Below are positions 2,206 to 33,252 of a DNA stretch of 36,401 bases, one piece after another; the stretch's first letter is position 1; each line of letters begins with the position of its first letter. Origin of the DNA: Anaerolineales bacterium (GTDB lineage: Bacteria > Chloroflexota > Anaerolineae > Anaerolineales > UBA4823); NCBI GenBank assembly GCA_020061105.1, contig JAGUYW010000064.1, positions 1 to 36,401 on the forward strand, read 5' to 3'. The notes under the pieces were generated by a model. The model saw only the letters and a list, made by a program, of their open reading frames with translations. It was not told the origin of the DNA and did no database searches. Position numbers and translations under genes: made by a program.

Positions 2206-3672
2206 CTAACAGAATTGTTTTAGGACTTCCACAACCTCGCCATTGGCATCGCGGATTGTGACCTGAAGCGGCATTTGCCCGGGTAAAGAGTGTGTGGCGC
2301 AGCCAAAGCAGGGGTCGTAAGCTCGGAAAGCCATTTCAACCATATTGAGTAAGCCTTCGTTGACAACAACGCCTTTTTTGATCAGGCTTTGGGCGGCTTT
2401 CTTGATCGACATACTGATTGGGGCGTAGTTATTGGTGGTGCCGACAATCAGGTTTACTTCGGTCAAGAGGCCACGTTCATCAGTTTTGTAGTGGTGCGTC
2501 AATGTACCGCGCGGCGCTTCGACAATCCCCACACCTTCGGTAGGTGTTGCGGTTGGTACGGTGTGAAAATTGGGCGAAGTGATCTCAGGATCGGTAGCGA
2601 GCTCGACGATTCGTTCGGCAGCATAGAGCAATTCGATGAGACGCGCCCAGTGAATTGCCAGGCGCTGGTGGACCGGTTTACCGCCCAGGGTTTCATAGAA
2701 CTTCTCGTACTGTTCCTGGGCGAGCGGAGTCGCCATACCATCAGCCGCGTTCAAGCGCGAGAGCGGCGTTGCAAAGTAAACCCCCGAGTCTTTGCCATCG
2801 ACAAAGCCTTTCCAGCCGACCTTCTTGAGGTAGGGGAACTTCAGGTATGTCCAGGGCTCGACTCGTTCGGCGATCCAGTCGGTGTATTCGTTTGGAGCAT
2901 ACTTGCCGATTCGCTCGCCGTCAGGGGCAACCACGCTCACTTTGCCATCGTAGAAGTTCACTATGTTATTTTCGTCCACAAGCCCTATCGAGTAGGTCTT
3001 GTGAGTATAGATGTCACCCAGGATCAGGTCAAGATAAGTTTTGTTCGCCAGGACAATGTCGGCAAAGAGCTTCAGGCTAAACTGGGCAAACTCAATTGCC
3101 CAGCGGCCCATGGCTTCGATCTCGGCGCGTTGTTCCTCAGTAATCCCTTTGGTCAAGCCTCCAGGAATGGAGGTGCATGGATGGACTTTTCTTCCGCCGA
3201 TGATTTCAACGATATGATGGCCATATTTGCGGGCCTGGATCACTTTGCCGCCGATTTCAAGGCCTACTTTATGAATGACGCCCAGGATGTTGCGTTCCGC
3301 AACAGGCGCATCGGGTCCCATGACGAAATCAGGGCCAGCCAGGGCATAGAAGTGCGTGGTATGGTCGGTAAAGTAGAAGCCAGAATAGAGTAGCTCGCGC
3401 AGTTTCTTGGCGGTGGGCGGTGGATCGACGTGGTAAACCGCATCGGCGGCTTTTGCCGCGGCCATATGGTGTGCTTCAGGGCACACTCCGCAGATGCGGT
3501 TGGTGAGCAGCGGCATTTCTTCAACGGGTCGACCGACGCAAAAGCGCTCGAAACCGCGCAGTTCAGGGATCTGGAAGTAGGTGTTGGCGACATCGCCATC
3601 TTCGTTCAAGAAGATATCGATCTTGCCGTGACCTTCCAGACGAGTAATCGGATCGATGGTAATTCTTTGCAT
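2206..3672 (-). CDS. mvhA: [NiFe] hydrogenase large subunit, group 3c (MvhA-like)
   Basis: This is the catalytic subunit, which cleaves or forms H2 at a Ni-Fe centre held by four Cys. The proximal motif RICGVCPEAHH is at 59-69. The distal motif DPCFGCATH is at 453-461. Both are complete and use Cys, not selenocysteine. A tail of 27 residues follows His461, as expected of a precursor cut by the protease encoded next. ITRLEGHGKI near the N-terminus is also typical. The length (488) fits F420-non-reducing hydrogenase large subunits. Position beside mvhD and hdrABC supports group 3c, which feeds electrons to heterodisulfide-reductase-type bifurcating complexes. The start ATG has AGGAGAAG just upstream. 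Family is certain; subgroup is inferred from gene context. Confidence 0.95.
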   Translation of the reverse strand: MQRITIDPITRLEGHGKIDIFLNEDGDVANTYFQIPELRGFERFCVGRPVEEMPLLTNRICGVCPEAHHMAAAKAADAVYHVDPPPTAKKLRELLYSGFYFTDHTTHFYALAGPDFVMGPDAPVAERNILGVIHKVGLEIGGKVIQARKYGHHIVEIIGGRKVHPCTSIPGGLTKGITEEQRAEIEAMGRWAIEFAQFSLKLFADIVLANKTYLDLILGDIYTHKTYSIGLVDENNIVNFYDGKVSVVAPDGERIGKYAPNEYTDWIAERVEPWTYLKFPYLKKVGWKGFVDGKDSGVYFATPLSRLNAADGMATPLAQEQYEKFYETLGGKPVHQRLAIHWARLIELLYAAERIVELATDPEITSPNFHTVPTATPTEGVGIVEAPRGTLTHHYKTDERGLLTEVNLIVGTTNNYAPISMSIKKAAQSLIKKGVVVNEGLLNMVEMAFRAYDPCFGCATHSLPGQMPLQVTIRDANGEVVEVLKQFC

Positions 3673-3699
3673 AGGTTACTTCTCCTGTTCCAGAACCCT

Positions 3700-4692
3700 T
3701 TAGCGGCTCCAGGACTTCATGCCTGCGCGTAGCAGCGAACCTGCCAGGTTGAAGCGGTAGAATTGACCGGCAGGGTCGGGGATGCCATCCAGGATGGCTT
3801 CGATCTCGTCAGGATCCGTAGAGTCGATGACGGAAGCGAAAGCGCTAATCAACCGCGCGCCGTAATCGATCACTCCTTCTGCCGGGCCGTAGCATCCGAT
3901 GCACTGAGCGCCAGCTTGTGGACACAGCGCGCCGCAACCCTGGCGGGTGGCTGGGCCGTTACAGGGCACGCCTTGTTCCAAAAGGCATAAGGTTGGGTCT
4001 GGGTTTTGAAGCGCCTGGATGCGGGTGAACTTCTTAACCAGTTTGACATTGCGCTGGCGTGGGCAATCATCGCACACCGTAGAGATGCCTGCCCCAATGA
4101 CCGAGCCAGCAGGCGGAAGGGTCGCTTTCCCTTGCAGCACCTGGATCACCAAATCGATCACCGATGCGATCTGGTGCGACTCTGGCGGGCAGCCTGGCAT
4201 GTAGTAATCAACTTTGACTACCTGGTCAAGGGTTCGTAGAGTGGGGTAGAACTCTGGAATGCTGATCTCGCCTTCAGGCATCTGGGTGCGATACTGGGGG
4301 CGCAGTTTCTCTGGGTTTTCACTGGAGATGCTGTCGTAAGCTGCATGGAAGATTTCTTCGGTCGAACTGAAGTTCGCCAAACCGGGAATACACCCTTCGG
4401 TTGCGCACGAGCCGAACGCCACCAGGATTTGCGATTTGCGACGTAGAAGATGAGCAATTTCTTCGTTTTCTTTGTTGCGGATGCCGCCATTCCAAAGCGT
4501 AAGAAGAATGGATTGGTCGGGCATGGCTTCGACGTCTTTGTATTTGGCGTCCATGGCTACCGGCCAGAAAACCACTTCGAAGTTGGCGTCAAAATCCAGA
4601 ATTTTCTCGCCGATATTCAAAACGGCGATTTCACAGCCGCCGCAAGAGGCAGCCCAGTACATGGCGAACTTTGGTTTGCCGTTGGCGCTCAT
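3700..4692 (-). CDS. mvhG: [NiFe] hydrogenase small subunit, group 3c (MvhG-like)
   Basis: This Fe-S subunit carries electrons from the Ni-Fe site toward MvhD and HdrA. It has the proximal-cluster motifs WAASCGGCEIAV near the N-terminus, GSCATEGCIPG and MPGCPPESHQI. The C-terminal Cys-rich segment (PCNGPATRQGCGALCP, then CIGCYGPAEG) fits the medial and distal clusters. There is no Tat signal, consistent with a cytoplasmic enzyme. The frame is open 15 codons further upstream, but the ATG at 4692 is chosen because AGGAGG lies 6 nt before it, inside the last codons of mvhD. This gives 330 residues. The gene starts one base after the mvhD stop, so the two are translationally coupled. Confidence 0.94.
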   Translation of the reverse strand: MSANGKPKFAMYWAASCGGCEIAVLNIGEKILDFDANFEVVFWPVAMDAKYKDVEAMPDQSILLTLWNGGIRNKENEEIAHLLRRKSQILVAFGSCATEGCIPGLANFSSTEEIFHAAYDSISSENPEKLRPQYRTQMPEGEISIPEFYPTLRTLDQVVKVDYYMPGCPPESHQIASVIDLVIQVLQGKATLPPAGSVIGAGISTVCDDCPRQRNVKLVKKFTRIQALQNPDPTLCLLEQGVPCNGPATRQGCGALCPQAGAQCIGCYGPAEGVIDYGARLISAFASVIDSTDPDEIEAILDGIPDPAGQFYRFNLAGSLLRAGMKSWSR

Positions 4693-4693
4693 G

Positions 4694-5158
4694 CTATACC
4701 TCCTCGAGTTCGTGTAAGGCGATTTTGTGGACGCCATTGTCTTTCCACTTCGGCCAATTCAAAGGCCCTAAGGCGCGCACTTCTTCCACAATTTTGGAGA
4801 TTTCATTGGCCAACCTAACGCCTTCAGCCGCGCTTGCCCAGACCAGTTTCACCCGGCCCGGCTCAATGCCGAATTGCGCCAGCGTTCGTCGCATCAGCAA
4901 AAAGCGACGCAGCGCTTTGTAGTTTTGCTCTAGATAATGGCACTCGCCAGGATGGCAACCGGTGATGAGCACGCCATCCGCGCCTTCGGAAAAGGCTTTC
5001 ATGACGAAGGATGGATCGAGGCGACCGGAGCACATCATGCGGATCAGGCGGACGTTTGGTGGATACTTGATGCGCGCCGTACCGGCCAGGTCAGCCGCGC
5101 GGTAGCTGCACCAGTTGCAGGTGAAGCCGATGATCACGGGTTCGAAATTTTCGGTCAT
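4694..5158 (-). CDS. mvhD: Hydrogenase iron-sulfur subunit delta (MvhD/VhuD family)
   Basis: MvhD carries a [2Fe-2S] cluster and links the hydrogenase to HdrA. The visible family signature is GFTCNWCSYRAADLAG at the N-terminus, then RMMCSGR and TGCHPGECHYLEQNY. These Cys residues are the usual cluster ligands. The ATG at 5158 (MTENFEP) is chosen over an upstream start at 5197 because GGAGAC lies just before it and the longer start would run into hdrA. The protein has 154 residues, normal for a stand-alone MvhD. Placement between hdrA and the small-subunit gene matches its bridging role. Confidence 0.94.
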   Translation of the reverse strand: MTENFEPVIIGFTCNWCSYRAADLAGTARIKYPPNVRLIRMMCSGRLDPSFVMKAFSEGADGVLITGCHPGECHYLEQNYKALRRFLLMRRTLAQFGIEPGRVKLVWASAAEGVRLANEISKIVEEVRALGPLNWPKWKDNGVHKIALHELEEV

Positions 5159-5171
5159 AATTGTCTCCTGC

Positions 5172-7202
5172 CTATCCCAATTCTGCCACGCGCGCATGTT
5201 CGAAGTTGACCATCAACAAGCCCTCGATTTGGGCCAGGATTTGCTGGTCGCTAAAACCGGTGCCGCTGATTGCGCCGGCCGGGCATGCTGCGATGCAAGT
5301 GCCGCAGCCCTGACATAGCGCTGGATTGACCTCCGTAACCATGCGATCTTCATGGAAAATGATGGCGTTGAAGGGGCACATGGAATTGCAGATGCGGCAA
5401 CCCGAACATTTGTCTTGATCGACGCTGGCTCGCACTGGCTCGAGAGCGATTTCTTTCTGTTGAATGCGGCCGAGAATGCGCGCCGCTGCAGCAGCGCCTT
5501 GGGAAACACTGGTTGGTATATCTTTGGGTCCTTGCACGCAGCCAGCGATGAAGATGCCTTCGGTCATGGTCGCAACCGGGTCAAGCTTCGGATGCTTCTC
5601 GATGTACCAACCGTTTGCGCTGCAAGAGATGCCAAACTTATGGGCAACTTCTTTAGCATCATAGCGAGGTTGCAAGGCGGCCGAAAGGATCACCATATCG
5701 ACTGGGATACGGCGTTGCTTTCCAGCCAGGGTGTCTTCAACCTGGATGATCAGGCGCCCTTCTTCCCCTGGCGAACGAGCGGCTCCGGTTACTTCGGCAA
5801 CTTTGCCGCGCACAAAGAGCGTGCCTTCTTCGAGAATGCGTTGGTAGAACTCGTCATATTCTTTGTAGGCCGTGCGCATGTCGATGTAGAAGTTGTACAC
5901 CGTTGCCCCGGTACGTTCGTGCACCAGGTGAGCGAATTTCAGGCTCTGCATGCAGCAAATGACCGAGCAGTAGTTGTTGAAGTTGCGGTCGCGGCTGCCG
6001 ACGCAATGGATGATGCCAACTGCGCGTGGTGTAGTCACACCGTCGCGTAGCACAATGTTCCCGTTGGTCGGTCCGGCAGCATTCGTCAGGCGCTCGAATT
6101 CCAGGCTGGAGAAGACATTCGCCAGGCGGCCATAGCCGTATTGAGATACCTTGCGTGGGTCGAAGAGATCAAATCCGGTCGCCAGAATGATATTGCCAAC
6201 TTGCACTGTAATGAGCTCGTCTTCCTGTTCGAAGTCAATTGCATCAGTTGGACAGAATTTTTGGCAGACTTTACAGGTGCCTTTCTGGAAGAATGTGCAA
6301 TTTTCACGGTCGATCACAGGATATTTAGGTACAGCTTGTGGGAAAGGTGTATAAACAGCCTTTCGGTATCCTAGGCCAGCTTCATATACATCATCGATCA
6401 ATTTTTTAGGGCATTTTTCCTGACATATACCACAGCCAGTGCACAATTCTGTTTTTATGTAACGGGCTTTCTTACGGATGGTAACTGTGAAATTGCCCAC
6501 ATAGCCATCAACTTTTTCTACTTCACTCCAGGTGAATAAATTTATGTTGGGATGATTTCCAACGGAAACCATTTTGGGAGTCAGAATACATGCGGAGCAA
6601 TCCAAGGTGGGGAAAGTTTTGTCGAATTGCGCCATGTGCCCACCGATCGAAGGCTCACGTTCAACCATGTAAACTGGGAATCCCGCATCGGCAATTTCAA
6701 GAGCAGCCTGGATTCCAGAAATCCCACCGCCTACAACCAATGTGGCTGGGTGGATCGGGACATGCAACGGCTCAAGCGGCTCATGATGGATAACTCGCTC
6801 CACGCCGCCTGATAACACGGCCTTAGATTTCTCAGTGGCAGCCTCTTTATCAGTATGTACCCATGACACCTGTTCGCGGATTGAAACCAACTCGCACAGG
6901 TAAGGGTTCAAGCCAGCGCGGGAGCAAGCGGTACGAAAAGTTGCCTCGTGAAGATGGGGAGAACATGCAGCAACCACCACGCGGGTCAGCCCTTCTTCCT
7001 GGATATCTTTTTCGATTAACTCTTGCCCGAGACTCGAACACATAAACTTGTAGTCGCGAGAGACAACCACGCCTCGTTCGGCCAAGTCCCTTCCAGCCCA
7101 TTCAGCGACATCCTGCACATCAACAATGCCGGCGATATTGCTTCCGCAGTGGCAAACATATACGCCGATGCGTTCTTTGTTTTCGGATTTTTCGGTTGTC
7201 AT
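5172..7202 (-). CDS. hdrA: Heterodisulfide reductase subunit A-like flavoprotein (HdrA)
   Basis: HdrA holds the FAD at which electron bifurcation takes place, and several [4Fe-4S] clusters. The 676 residues contain an N-terminal region with CHCG (17-20), an FAD-binding Rossmann motif VVGGGISG (156-163) followed by ERE, the HdrA hallmark LDCSACILTPKM (200-211), a ferredoxin-like insert with CTGCGICQEKCP (254-265) and CKVCQKFCP (310-318), and two C-terminal [4Fe-4S] motifs at 599-609 and 630-640. The start ATG is preceded by GGAGGA, which lies inside the last codons of hdrB. In methanogens the disulfide is CoM-S-S-CoB; this is a bacterium, so the disulfide or other high-potential acceptor is unknown. 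Ferredoxin is the expected low-potential product. Confidence 0.96.
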   Translation of the reverse strand: MTTEKSENKERIGVYVCHCGSNIAGIVDVQDVAEWAGRDLAERGVVVSRDYKFMCSSLGQELIEKDIQEEGLTRVVVAACSPHLHEATFRTACSRAGLNPYLCELVSIREQVSWVHTDKEAATEKSKAVLSGGVERVIHHEPLEPLHVPIHPATLVVGGGISGIQAALEIADAGFPVYMVEREPSIGGHMAQFDKTFPTLDCSACILTPKMVSVGNHPNINLFTWSEVEKVDGYVGNFTVTIRKKARYIKTELCTGCGICQEKCPKKLIDDVYEAGLGYRKAVYTPFPQAVPKYPVIDRENCTFFQKGTCKVCQKFCPTDAIDFEQEDELITVQVGNIILATGFDLFDPRKVSQYGYGRLANVFSSLEFERLTNAAGPTNGNIVLRDGVTTPRAVGIIHCVGSRDRNFNNYCSVICCMQSLKFAHLVHERTGATVYNFYIDMRTAYKEYDEFYQRILEEGTLFVRGKVAEVTGAARSPGEEGRLIIQVEDTLAGKQRRIPVDMVILSAALQPRYDAKEVAHKFGISCSANGWYIEKHPKLDPVATMTEGIFIAGCVQGPKDIPTSVSQGAAAAARILGRIQQKEIALEPVRASVDQDKCSGCRICNSMCPFNAIIFHEDRMVTEVNPALCQGCGTCIAACPAGAISGTGFSDQQILAQIEGLLMVNFEHARVAELG

Positions 7203-7205
7203 AAT

Positions 7206-8207
7206 TTATTCCTCCTCGCCGCTGCGACCAGGCATGACTGGCATGGGCAAGCCGGTGGTCTTCTTGCGCTTGGGCTTGGCCTGGACATCTTCAGCGGGGG
7301 TTTCAACGCCTATGCGGCTCATGGCTTCGGTGGCTTTGACAAATTCGCGACCAAAACCAAGCGTCTTGGGGTCTTTGCCAAACGCCACGCCCATCAATTG
7401 GGTGAAGAACAGAATCGGGAAGCGTGACTGGATATCTCGGCCTTGCGCATGCATGTACTTGATTGCGTCAGCCTGGTAAGCATCCAGATTCAACTGGCAC
7501 ATCGGGCAAACCGTAGCAATGACATCGGCTTTGAAGGTATCGGCTGACGTCAGCAGGCGGCCGATCATCTCGAAAGCTGTGTCGGGGCTGATTTGGGTCA
7601 TGTGACCACCGCAGCAGTGTGTCTTGAGAGGAAAATCGATCACTTCCGCCCCGAGGGCGCGCAGTAAATCATCCAATTCGGTGGGGTGCTCGTGGTCGGA
7701 CCAGTTCTTGTAATAATCTGGACGCGGCACCATGCAGCCCAGATATGGAGCAACGCGCAGACCGGTGAGCGGTTTGACAACTTTACTCTTGATGTGATCC
7801 AGGCCGATGTCATAAACCATAATGTCCAACAGGTGGCGGATGCTCAGGCTGCCGGGTGTGTAGTTCAATCCACCTTCTGCCAGAGCTTCATTGACCTTAT
7901 CGCCCAGAATTGGGCGTTCTGCCATGTAATGGTCGGCTTTGGCAAGATTAAGGTAGCAGGCGCTGCAAGAAGCCACCACTGTTTTTGAGCCGTTGGCCTG
8001 TTTGGAAGCCAAGGCCAGGTTGCGTCCGATCAGGGCGTAGGCAGGGACGAGGCTGATGCCGAGATACTCGGTGGCGCCGCAGCAGTTCCAGTCGTCGATC
8101 TCGACCAGATCCATATCCATGACATCATTAATCTGGCTGAGTGATTCGGCGTAGGCATGGGCGCTCGATTCCATCGAGCATCCAGGATAGAACAGGTATT
8201 TTTTCAT
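7206..8207 (-). CDS. hdrB: Heterodisulfide reductase subunit B-like protein (HdrB)
   Basis: HdrB carries the non-cubane iron-sulfur clusters at which the disulfide is reduced in methanogens. Two CCG domains are visible. The first has YPGCS, NCCGATEYLG and SCSAC; the second has YLGCM, HCCGGHM and CPMC. Both show the C-Xn-CCG-Xn-CXXC pattern, so the disulfide site looks intact. A roughly 45-residue Lys/Pro-rich extension follows the core and ends in Gly-Glu-Glu-Glu. The ATG at 8207 overlaps the hdrC stop by one base (TGATG) and is preceded by GGAGG. An in-frame TTG one codon earlier is less likely. The protein has 333 residues. Confidence 0.95.
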   Translation of the reverse strand: MKKYLFYPGCSMESSAHAYAESLSQINDVMDMDLVEIDDWNCCGATEYLGISLVPAYALIGRNLALASKQANGSKTVVASCSACYLNLAKADHYMAERPILGDKVNEALAEGGLNYTPGSLSIRHLLDIMVYDIGLDHIKSKVVKPLTGLRVAPYLGCMVPRPDYYKNWSDHEHPTELDDLLRALGAEVIDFPLKTHCCGGHMTQISPDTAFEMIGRLLTSADTFKADVIATVCPMCQLNLDAYQADAIKYMHAQGRDIQSRFPILFFTQLMGVAFGKDPKTLGFGREFVKATEAMSRIGVETPAEDVQAKPKRKKTTGLPMPVMPGRSGEEE

Positions 8208-8809
8208 CAAGACACCTCCAAAGTGTTGGCCTTGGCTATGATGGCTTTAAGTTGGTCGATGCCTTTGATGCGCTTGGGGGTAATGTTCAGGCGGCTCTTA
8301 GCCCATAGGCCGAGAGCCATGGGCGCCATAGAGGGAGCGCGCAGCGGGAAGTGTTTCAAGGCATGCACGGTCGCCAGGCCAACCTCCCAACTGCGACCAT
8401 ATTCATTGACATTGCCGATGAAGGTACTGGAGAAGCCGGCTGCTGCTTTATTGATTTTGTGTGAGGGTGAGTCGGAATACAAGCCCGATTGAATCGCCAT
8501 GCTTTTTAGGGTATACATAACATCGGTAATGTGCACATCTTGCGGGCAGCGCACCACGCAATGGTAGCACGAGACGCAGACCCAGGGTGTATTGCTGCGC
8601 AAGGCTTCTTCGCGCATACCAGCCCGGATTAAGGCGAATAAGCCACGCGGGGTGTGATCCATATCTTCGGCTGACGGGCAGGAACCACCGCAAGTGCCAC
8701 ATTGGATGCACATCTCCAGGCGCGAGACGCCAGCAGTTTTGGCGCTCACTTCTTCCAGGAAACGCAAATTTGGGTTGGGATCATTTGGATTTACAGGTTG
8801 TGCTTTCAA
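8207..8809 (-). CDS. hdrC: Heterodisulfide reductase subunit C-like ferredoxin protein (HdrC)
   Basis: HdrC passes electrons between HdrA and HdrB through two [4Fe-4S] clusters. The motifs are CIQCGTCGGSCP and CVSCYHCVVRCP, the normal HdrC pair. A helical C-terminal region follows. An ATG at 8848 would add 13 residues, but a strong GAGGAGG lies 6 nt before the TTG at 8809, so TTG is chosen, giving 200 residues. It is the first gene of the operon. The 337 bp upstream carry a candidate regulated promoter. The order C-B-A-mvhD-G-A runs from the disulfide side to the hydrogen side. Confidence 0.94.
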   Translation of the reverse strand: MKAQPVNPNDPNPNLRFLEEVSAKTAGVSRLEMCIQCGTCGGSCPSAEDMDHTPRGLFALIRAGMREEALRSNTPWVCVSCYHCVVRCPQDVHITDVMYTLKSMAIQSGLYSDSPSHKINKAAAGFSSTFIGNVNEYGRSWEVGLATVHALKHFPLRAPSMAPMALGLWAKSRLNITPKRIKGIDQLKAIIAKANTLEVS

Positions 8810-8962
8810 GAGCCACCTCCTCTGTTGGTGGAAGTAGACGCAGTGCATACTCAGGATGAAAGGGGTTTTATGACAACAATTCTCGTTTAAAAATCTTAAA
8901 AGGAGCCTCCGATTTTTATTTACAATTTTGGACTGGATGAATAAACTAATTGCCTAGATAAT

Positions 8963-26931: not shown

Positions 26932-27702
26932 CTACCCAAAGCGGCCTTCAACGTAATCCTGGGTTCGCTTATCTGTTGGATTGATAAAAAGGTTGGGACC
27001 GGGAGCTGCTTCGATCAATTCACCCTGCAGAAAAAAAGCAGCGTGGTCGGCAACACGGGCGGCCTGCTGTACTGAGTGCGGTACCAGGACGATGGTGTAG
27101 TTGTTTTTGATCTCTTGAAGGGAGGCTTCGACTTTACTGGTCGAGATTGGATCGAGGCCGGAGGTGGGCTCGTCGAGCAGGATAACTTCTGGCTGCATCG
27201 CCAGAGAACGAGCCAGGCAAAGGCGCTGCTGCTGTCCGCCAGATAGGGCAGCGGCGGGTTCGTCGAGGCGGTCTTTGACTTCTTCCCAAAGGGCGGCTTG
27301 TTGCAGGCTGCGCTCGACTGCTTCACCTAAAAGATTATTTTGGCGCATCCCCGCCACTTCTAAGCCATAGGTCAGGTTGCCGCGAATCGAGAGTGGCAGC
27401 GTGACTGGGCGGGCGAAAACCATGCTGACCAGGCGGCGCAGGGCGACGACATCGGTTTGGGGATCGAGGATATCGATCGTCTGTCCATTGTCACCAAAGA
27501 GCCTGATCTGCCCGGAAACCGAACGTACATCTGCCAGGTCGTTCAAGCGATTCAGGGCGCGCAGCAGCGACGACTTACCGCCGCCAGCCGGACCCAAAAA
27601 AACGCTGATCGCACGCGCAGGAATATCGATGGTGATGTCACGCAGCGACTCAGCGCCATCAGAATAAGTCAGGTGGAAGTGCTCGATTGAAATTTTAACC
27701 AT
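26932..27702 (-). CDS. pstB: Phosphate ABC transporter ATPase PstB, Q-loop-degenerate copy
   Basis: This is the ATPase for the PstCA channel. Of its 256 residues, the Walker A is GPAGGGKSS (37-45), the signature LSGGQQQRL (153-161) is intact, and Walker B with catalytic Glu is VILLDEPTSGLD. His209 of the H-loop is present. The Q-loop reads VSMVFARPVTLP, where PstB proteins have [12 protein letters not shown]: the conserved Gln is Ala97 (codon GCC, 27412-27414). Walker A also lacks the family's Ser and Cys (PSGCGKST). It is the fourth gene of pstSCAB on the minus strand, 43 bp after pstA. A second PstB with the opposite defect lies at 32485-33252. Confidence 0.92.
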   Translation of the reverse strand: MVKISIEHFHLTYSDGAESLRDITIDIPARAISVFLGPAGGGKSSLLRALNRLNDLADVRSVSGQIRLFGDNGQTIDILDPQTDVVALRRLVSMVFARPVTLPLSIRGNLTYGLEVAGMRQNNLLGEAVERSLQQAALWEEVKDRLDEPAAALSGGQQQRLCLARSLAMQPEVILLDEPTSGLDPISTSKVEASLQEIKNNYTIVLVPHSVQQAARVADHAAFFLQGELIEAAPGPNLFINPTDKRTQDYVEGRFG

Positions 27703-31931: not shown

Positions 31932-32450
31932 TTGACTCTTTTGCAATTTTCCATTATCCTTAGCGATGTGAATCCGCTCAATTTATACTCTGTCCCACTG
32001 ATGCTGCTGGTAATTATCCTGCTAGCAGGCAGCTTATTGTTGCGTGGCGGTCCGAGTCGCGGACGTGTAGCGATCTTATTGGCTTTGGTGATTGGACTGG
32101 TTGTGGGCTGGTTTACCATCCGCCCGGTGCAAACCCCTACCGAAGGCGCTGAAGAATTGCGCAATCGAATCGGCGCTGGAAACCCGGTTTTATTGGAATT
32201 TCAATCGCCCTACTGAATGGCGTGTGTGACGCTCAAGCCCGTCGTAGACGGGATCGAAAGCGAGTATGCGGGGCGTTTATTGGTTTTGCGGGTGGATGTG
32301 CAAAGCTCGGTTGGTAAAGCCATGGGGCGCGAGTACAATATCATTGCAACGCCCAGCTTTGTGTTCTTCGACGCTAAGGGTGCAGTGGTTTGGCGCAGCG
32401 TAGGGACGTTACAAGTCAACCAGGTGAGGGAGGCGCTTGGCGATCAGTAA
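31932..32450 (+). CDS. Membrane-anchored thioredoxin-like protein, probable selenoprotein (in-frame TGA, Sec-Met-Ala-Cys)
   Basis: Read through the TGA at 32214-32216 this is one 172-residue protein. It has two N-terminal membrane helices (about 19-38 and 45-63), then a thioredoxin domain: NPVLLEFQSPY-[TGA]-MACVTLKPVVDGIESEY, LLVLRVDVQSSVGKAMGREYN, the cis-Pro loop IIATPSFVFF, and a last strand AVVWRSVG. The TGA replaces exactly the first Cys of the CxxC active site, giving UxxC with the second Cys (residue 98) kept. No other stop or frameshift occurs, and a SECIS-like hairpin follows. Selenocysteine is the best explanation; a point mutation of TGC or TGT to TGA is the alternative. The start is uncertain: TTG 31932, or GTG 31968, which keeps both helices. 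It lies between the substrate-binding lipoprotein gene and pstB2. Confidence 0.75.
32214..32262 (+). promoter_or_regulatory. TGA (Sec) codon and bacterial SECIS-like hairpin
   Basis: After the TGA, CCCGTC (32238-32243) pairs perfectly with GACGGG (32247-32252) around the loop GTA. An outer helix of CGCT (32230-32233) with AGCG (32259-32262) can extend it beyond an internal loop. The apical loop begins 27 nt after the TGA and its first base is G. This agrees with the loose bacterial SECIS model: an apical loop about 16-37 nt after the codon, with G among its first two bases. Confidence 0.55.
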
Positions 32451-32484: not shown

Positions 32485-33252
32485 ATGATGGATAGCAAGC
32501 CGGTTTTCCATGTGGAACACCTGGATTTCTATTACGGGCGCTTCAAAGCCCTGGCGGATATTGGTATGGATATCCTGCCTAAGCGGGTGACGGCGCTAAT
32601 CGGTCCGTCTGGATGCGGTAAGTCGACCTTTTTGCGCTGTTTCAACCGCATGAATGACACCATTCCAGGAGTCAGGATCGAGGGGCAGATTATGCTAGAC
32701 GGGGAGGATATTTACGCCGCTAACACCGACCTTTCGGGTCTACGCAAGCGGGTGGGAATGGTCTTTCAAAAACCAAACCCCTTCCCGCAATCGATTTTTA
32801 ATAACGTAGCTTTTGGACCGCGCGTCCTGGGTCTGGTCAAGTCACCCAGCCAACTGCAAGACCTGGTTGAGCACAGCTTGCGCCAGGTGGCTTTGTGGGA
32901 TGAGGTGAAGGATATCATGGATCGCGACGCTTTGGGGCTTTCACTGGGGCAGCAGCAGCGCCTATGCCTGGCGCGTGTTCTGGCGACTGAACCGGACGTG
33001 ATTTTGATGGATGAACCAGCCTCGGCGCTCGATCCGATTACCACCTTGCGCCTGGAGGAATTGATCGCCGAATTGAAAGTCAACTACACGATCGTGATTG
33101 TGACACACAATATGCAGCAGGCTGCACGGGTTTCAGATTTTACGGGATTCTTCTGGTTGGGGGAATTGGTAGAATTTTCGGATACGGTAAAAATGTTTAC
33201 CCAGCCCGAAAAAGAAATCACAGAAAACTATATCACCGGGCGGATGGGGTAG
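32485..33252 (+). CDS. pstB: Second PstB-type phosphate transporter ATPase, signature-degenerate copy
   Basis: A 255-residue PstB paralogue on the plus strand, away from the pst operon. Walker A (GPSGCGKST, 40-48), the Q-loop ([12 protein letters not shown]), Walker B ([12 protein letters not shown]) and the H-loop ([13 protein letters not shown]) all match PstB. The signature reads LSLGQQQRL instead of LSGGQQQRL: the first Gly is Leu154 (codon CTG, 32944-32946). This is the mirror image of the other PstB in the window, whose signature is intact but whose Q-loop Gln is lost. It starts 34 bp after the thioredoxin gene. Either ATG 32485 or 32488 may be used. It could pair with the first copy or serve another PstCA. 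Confidence 0.92.

Follow-up and report, generated by a model that had tools for sequence, protein, structure and literature searches.

A predicted membrane-anchored thioredoxin lineage of Chloroflexota with probable selenocysteine in its active site and a bSECIS-like hairpin linked to the UGA codon

Thioredoxins (Trx, PF00085) with a UxxC active site are entered as experimentally verified selenoproteins in Table 1 of PMC13188914, and the passages of PMC1794560 consulted here give seven selenocysteine (Sec) thioredoxins and three Chloroflexi selenoproteins. For the Anaerolineales, the consulted part of PMC4959059 records Sec annotations in the formate dehydrogenases of three single-cell genomes; for Anaerolinea thermophila UNI-1 it describes an elongation factor for selenocysteine but no Sec dehydrogenase. 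The strings "Chloroflex" and "Anaerolin" occur 0 times in the main text of PMC13188914. Among the matches listed in open-licence literature on Chloroflexi and Anaerolineales selenoproteins and on bacterial selenoproteomes, none is about a membrane-anchored protein of the type described below, judging from titles and the starts of abstracts. The anchored lineage is likewise absent from the consulted passages of PMC13188914, PMC1794560, PMC4959059, PMC5330540, PMC1088965, PMC5736913, PMC5424206 and PMC2398784.

The window analysed here is the whole 36,401-nucleotide stretch of contig JAGUYW010000064.1 from an Anaerolineales bacterium. We consider it very probable that one of its genes encodes a selenoprotein, a thioredoxin anchored in the membrane by two helices, in which the UGA codon at 32214-32216 is decoded as Sec. 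An earlier note on this DNA, made from the sequence alone, had proposed a probable new selenoprotein; since Sec-containing thioredoxins are already a known kind, the claim of newness is limited to the anchored lineage, which, judged by its sequences, is new within that kind as far as the open-licence literature goes. Like the known Sec thioredoxins, the window protein has a PF00085 domain, Sec at the first active-site Cys and a resolving Cys three residues on. Set against their table entry (PF00085, UxxC), it differs in its two N-terminal hydrophobic helices, in a domain predicted to be extracytoplasmic, and in a score of 43.9 bits with the TIGR01068 thioredoxin equivalog, under the cut-off of 96.8.

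A second point of reference is provided by proteins of the ResA/TlpA/CcmG type, which are membrane-anchored, extracytoplasmic thiol-disulfide proteins. The resemblance lies in an anchored thioredoxin fold, predicted here to lie outside the membrane, and the window protein differs in having two helices and a TrxA-like domain. The StoA, ResA and DsbE models give 11-17 bits on it, far below cut-off. When the named selenoprotein models of NCBIfam (release 20) were tried, TsoB was the sole match up to an E value of 1, and at 14.7 against 805 bits it was rejected.

The frame contains a single in-frame TGA, at 32214-32216, at the first Cys position of the thioredoxin active site. It runs ...LLEFQSPY-TGA-MACVTLKP...ATPSF... 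and remains open to the TAA at 32448-32450 with no other stop and no frameshift, in agreement with the earlier note. The read-through translation matches the Pfam thioredoxin family PF00085 at 4.5e-10, with 39.9 bits against a gathering score of 23.5. Ordinary gene calling had been expected to split the gene into pieces of 94 and 77 residues, and the open reading frame list does show both. The start, however, had been placed at TTG 31932, and this is probably wrong. The nearest relative, locus L013 on the single 3.6-Mb contig of genome G005, begins MNPLNLYS, and the window sequence VNPLNLYS aligns with it from GTG 31968; because homology begins there, this GTG, 36 bases inside the TTG, is probably the start codon. 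The gene would then span 31968-32450 (+), align with L013 from end to end and encode 160 amino acids with Sec83 and Cys86. Identity with L013 is 61.0% over the 82 codons 5′ of the TGA, and amino-acid identity is 54.7% over the 75 codons 3′ of it. Past the TGA the two genes differ at 24, 13 and 48 first, second and third codon positions, which, on this pairwise comparison, is the pattern expected under purifying selection beyond the stop.

If the UGA were a true stop, created by sequencing error or recent nonsense mutation or belonging to a pseudogene, only the anchor would be made. In keeping with this possibility, the genome bin that contains the window shows selA alone of the Sec genes. The persistence of purifying selection beyond the TGA argues against it, and so does the distribution of the codon among relatives. 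Within the family, 37 of 38 genomes contain some match at E<=0.001, most of them ordinary thioredoxins. Leaving aside the window's own match, the top three (58, 43 and 37% in G005, G004 and G003) come from three further genera and carry one TGA each, at the same codon. Profile A1, searched at E<=1e-14, has matches in 114 of the order's 301 genomes. These divide into 77 with a one-TGA match, 16 that lack TGA and score at least 100 bits, and 21 weaker matches (55-71 bits), also lacking TGA. Reading the codon in 41 of the 77 showed TGA at the same position in every one, while in the 16 full-length TGA-less genomes, all of which were read, it is Cys in 16/16. When 400 genomes were drawn from the phylum, 32 matched profile A5 at E<=1e-25. 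Of these, 14 do not belong to the order; the codon reads TGA in 11 of the 14 and Cys in the remaining three. TGA is also found in named assemblies from many projects. From the collection of named genomes the best 80 of 108 relatives were kept, and among these 80 the record titles name Chloroflexi, Chloroflexota, or Anaerolineae, -ales, -aceae or Anaerolinea in 75 cases and Longilinea, Villigracilaceae, Brevefilum or Aquidulcis in the remaining five. Given that 77 of the order's 301 genomes have a match with one in-frame TGA, that the codon is the same in all 41 read, and that Cys is the sole alternative seen there, we discard sequencing error and pseudogene and regard a true stop of any origin as extremely improbable.

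For a closer comparison 140 loci (L012-L151) were scored, 26 under 100 bits were excluded, and the remaining 114 collapsed to 90 members that differ within 120 bases from the codon. The earlier note had proposed to look at homologues at this position, and every family member that was read has TGA or a Cys codon and nothing else. An in-frame UGA where homologues have Cys is one mark of a bacterial selenoprotein, and among the 90 we find 71 TGA and 19 Cys codons (13 TGC and 6 TGT); 71:19 is no frequency, because a profile built from TGA members was used to fetch the best-matching loci. In a tree of these 90 sequences the TGA/Cys label changes at least 10 times, with seven changes forced by the starred branches, compared with a mean of 17.4 in shuffles. 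With the midpoint root the deep rows are TGA. Together with the TGA in 11 of the 14 matches from outside the order, this suggests that Sec may be the ancestral state. One genome (G060; C188, L192) carries adjacent copies of the thioredoxin, one with TGA and one with Cys, and three genomes of group f15 (G076, G098 and G106) have two TGA copies each.

The published limits for bSECIS elements, in the part of PMC13188914 consulted, are a loop of 3-9 nt with G in its first two bases, a stem of 4-16 bp, a spacing of 16-37 nt and a minimum free energy (MFE) of -7.5 kcal/mol or lower. Following the UGA is a hairpin, CCCGUC-GUA-GACGGG at 32238-32252 (+), which lies within these limits: the stem begins 21 nt and the loop 27 nt from the UGA, the loop has 3 nt beginning GU, with G first, the stem has 6 bp, and the MFE of the 45 nt from the UGA is -15.4 kcal/mol. 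It differs from that consensus in that its sequence is family-specific (mostly CCYRUC-GUN-GAYRGG) and that 36 of the 71 TGA members have one or two unpaired positions. In these 71 genes 385 of 426 cells are paired and the loop is GUN in all 71, with a mean of 5.42 of 6 pairs at the hairpin offset versus 0.6-3.4 at other offsets. Pairing drops to 42 of 114 cells among the 19 Cys genes, and in a control with shuffles and slid windows their pairing resembles that of their own shuffles. One of the 19, L071, retains the full hairpin, and another Cys-form gene, L171, pairs 5 of 6.

It might be argued that the hairpin is no RNA element and merely mirrors conserved residues of the protein, K-P-V/I-V-D-G. 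Covariation bears on this in both directions. In the TGA set (A3) 28 cells are changed on both sides of a pair, a value reached in 0 of 500 shuffles and falling to 0-1 when the window is slid, where cells count sequences, not events, and the shuffles ignore relatedness. The double changes are confined to two of the six pairs, 3 and 4; pairs 1, 2, 5 and 6 show none, and the residues encoded there are conserved, which favours a protein constraint. Two of five covariation measures, how many pairs show a double change and how many further pair types occur, fall within the shuffles (315/500). A second set was assembled from 34 further stretches and 12 loci of the phylum draw, excluding 15 rows whose sequences A3 or A4 already contained and a single match below 60 bits. 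In its 21 TGA rows, some of them near relatives of one another, 114 of 126 cells are paired, as are 32 of 66 in 11 Cys rows, and it brings pair types absent from A3, G-C at pair 3 and U-A at pair 4. These new types, the covariation of pairs 3 and 4, and the fact that the Cys genes share much of the protein sequence and yet pair at background make it very improbable that protein constraint accounts for the hairpin. Folding single sequences gave weak z-scores (-1.09 and -1.51), RNAalifold returned no consensus pair on A3, and L015 alone of four folded TGA genes had a different MFE structure. A family-specific model, R1, searched over the window's genome, found the window's own element as its sole match, and so brought to light no further selenoprotein gene.

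That the bSECIS-like hairpin is retained in TGA genes and has largely disappeared from Cys genes also argues against a reading of the UGA as Cys or another standard amino acid by a suppressor or recoding tRNA. In favour of such a reading, Cys is the alternative residue at this position, and the incorporation of Sec is something that we infer. TGA is an ordinary stop, terminating 6 of the 25 window genes, and reassignment of TGA across the genome was therefore rejected. The distribution of the Sec machinery also weighs against a standard amino acid. By hand tally, the 77 TGA genomes contain selA (E<=1e-60) in 75 cases and tRNA-Sec in 65, and one (G039) has neither. Among the 16 Cys-form genomes, two (G047 and G072) have neither selA nor tRNA-Sec, and no selB or selD above cut-off; yet selA is present in 12 of these 16 and tRNA-Sec in 14. 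Taken together, we judge a standard amino acid at this codon to be very improbable and continue with Sec as the preferred reading.

The earlier note had called for a search of the genome for selA, selB, selD and tRNA-Sec, and the outcome was mixed. The window's bin (1.95 Mb, 54% complete) contains selA, at 541.5 bits, and has none of selB, selD and tRNA-Sec above cut-off. These absences say little, because the bin does not contain even an EF-Tu-like match to the selB model at E<=1e-30. No tRNA was detected by ARAGORN in either the window or L004. In relatives the machinery is more complete. Among nine genomes searched further, selB is above cut-off in G003, G004, G005, G048 and G131, and selD, with one in-frame TGA, in G003, G005, G039, G048 and G131; because its match carries that TGA, SelD is probably itself a selenoprotein in these five genomes. 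All four components were found in G003 and G005, the selD match of G005 being partial (positions 1-107). In G004 tRNA-Sec and selD were not found, and G039, with the TGA form and the TGA-containing selD match, is the genome in which selA and tRNA-Sec were not found. Over the whole order selA passes its cut-off in 240 of 301 genomes and tRNA-Sec in 239, compared with one and five, respectively, of 14 named control genomes, so that weak tRNA-Sec matches may be false. Since selA is present in 240 genomes but the TGA match in 77, and since most Cys-form genomes keep the machinery, in most genomes of the order the Sec machinery chiefly serves proteins other than this one. The central proposal of the earlier note, a selenocysteine redox protein, is supported by the exchange of TGA and Cys, the TGA-linked hairpin, selA in the bin and the machinery of relatives.

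The predicted architecture is uniform. A first transmembrane helix is predicted at about residues 6-24 (31983-32039, +; hydropathy peak 2.45, AlphaFold helix 8-24), a second at about residues 31-51 (32058-32120, +; peak 2.37, AlphaFold helix 31-51), and the thioredoxin domain, with its ATPS cis-Pro loop, at about residues 62-160 (32151-32447, +), as indicated by PF00085 and by profile and Foldseek matches. All 90 members have two hydrophobic segments ahead of the active site. The mean charge of the loop between the helices in these members is +1.8, with -0.1 before and 0.0 after. According to the positive-inside rule, positively charged loops lie on the cytoplasmic side, and because the inter-helix loop is positive the thioredoxin domain is probably extracytoplasmic. 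Profile A1 matches solved thioredoxins, the best being 6zom at 2.6e-13. AlphaFold, run on 43 sequences, gave a mean pLDDT of 92.6, and the best solved Foldseek match to the predicted model is the thioredoxin 7xao (1.2e-8). Nine columns are invariant among the 43 sequences, including both active-site positions and P129 of the cis-Pro loop.

The position between a substrate-binding lipoprotein gene and pstB had been considered unusual. This setting is peculiar to the window genome; 72 of 80 named loci (the best of 108, some ending at contig ends) have upstream, on the opposite strand, a gene that we take from its sequence to be EF-G-like. A methyltransferase gene is found in 57 and a Metalloenzyme-superfamily gene in 58 of the same 80, on the same strand; one methyltransferase was scanned (PF13649 at 65.6 bits, TPMT at 31.7), as was one metalloenzyme. 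L092 has all three neighbours and L151 two, and the window and L072 have none. In the window, related pstB-like phosphate-type ABC ATPase genes at 26932-27702 (-) and 32485-33252 (+) flank the lipoprotein and thioredoxin genes. On the upstream side, within about 7 kb, several of the named loci L073-L151 also have cysteine-synthase-like (27), ThiS-like (20), MoeB-like (19) and JAMM-like (18) genes, which recall the sulfur-carrier cysteine pathway; one ThiS-like protein was scanned. At 2206-8848 (-) the window also contains a run of genes that, from their sequences, presumably encode an Mvh-type hydrogenase together with a heterodisulfide reductase. Proteins of these types can contain Sec elsewhere, but the genes here are open, with 0 in-frame TGA.

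Further TGA-containing thioredoxin-like genes were seen. A lipoprotein-like one at 1429-1629 of L035 (G029) has two in-frame TGA codons, in a UxxU motif, and is followed by a hairpin of the same type, CCTGTC-GTG-GATGGG; another two-TGA match is in G028:C177. Within the family, eight more thioredoxin-like matches, all weak (23-31 bits), each contain one in-frame TGA (in G004, G005, G012, G025, G026, G028, G029 and G032), and these are possibly other Sec redox proteins.

In the mechanism that we propose, SelB and Sec-tRNA(Sec), guided by the hairpin at 32238-32252, would decode the UGA at 32214-32216 as Sec, and the positive loop between the helices would place the thioredoxin domain outside the cytoplasmic membrane. 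There the selenolate, at the N-terminal end of the active-site helix, would attack a disulfide (or peroxide) substrate, and Cys86 would resolve the selenenylsulfide. The likeliest role may be the reduction of envelope protein disulfides, supplied by a membrane thiol carrier, although we offer it tentatively, as falling somewhat short of probable.

It is possible, though we think it rather unlikely, that the family constitutes an ancient anchored-thioredoxin lineage spanning the Chloroflexota, with Sec ancestral, repeated replacement by Cys accompanied by SECIS decay, and the protein a regular Sec client in Anaerolineales. If so, such a lineage might explain genomes that have selB without a Sec dehydrogenase, an example being A. 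thermophila UNI-1 as described in the consulted part of PMC4959059. Whatever its age, the predicted protein would add a widespread lineage to the selenoproteins, one shared by many members of a large and mostly uncultured phylum and with a gene that an ordinary open reading frame list splits, and it would place Sec chemistry on the outer face of the membrane. The 71 Sec and 19 Cys forms would also amount to a natural experiment on the decay of the SECIS element after Sec-to-Cys exchange.
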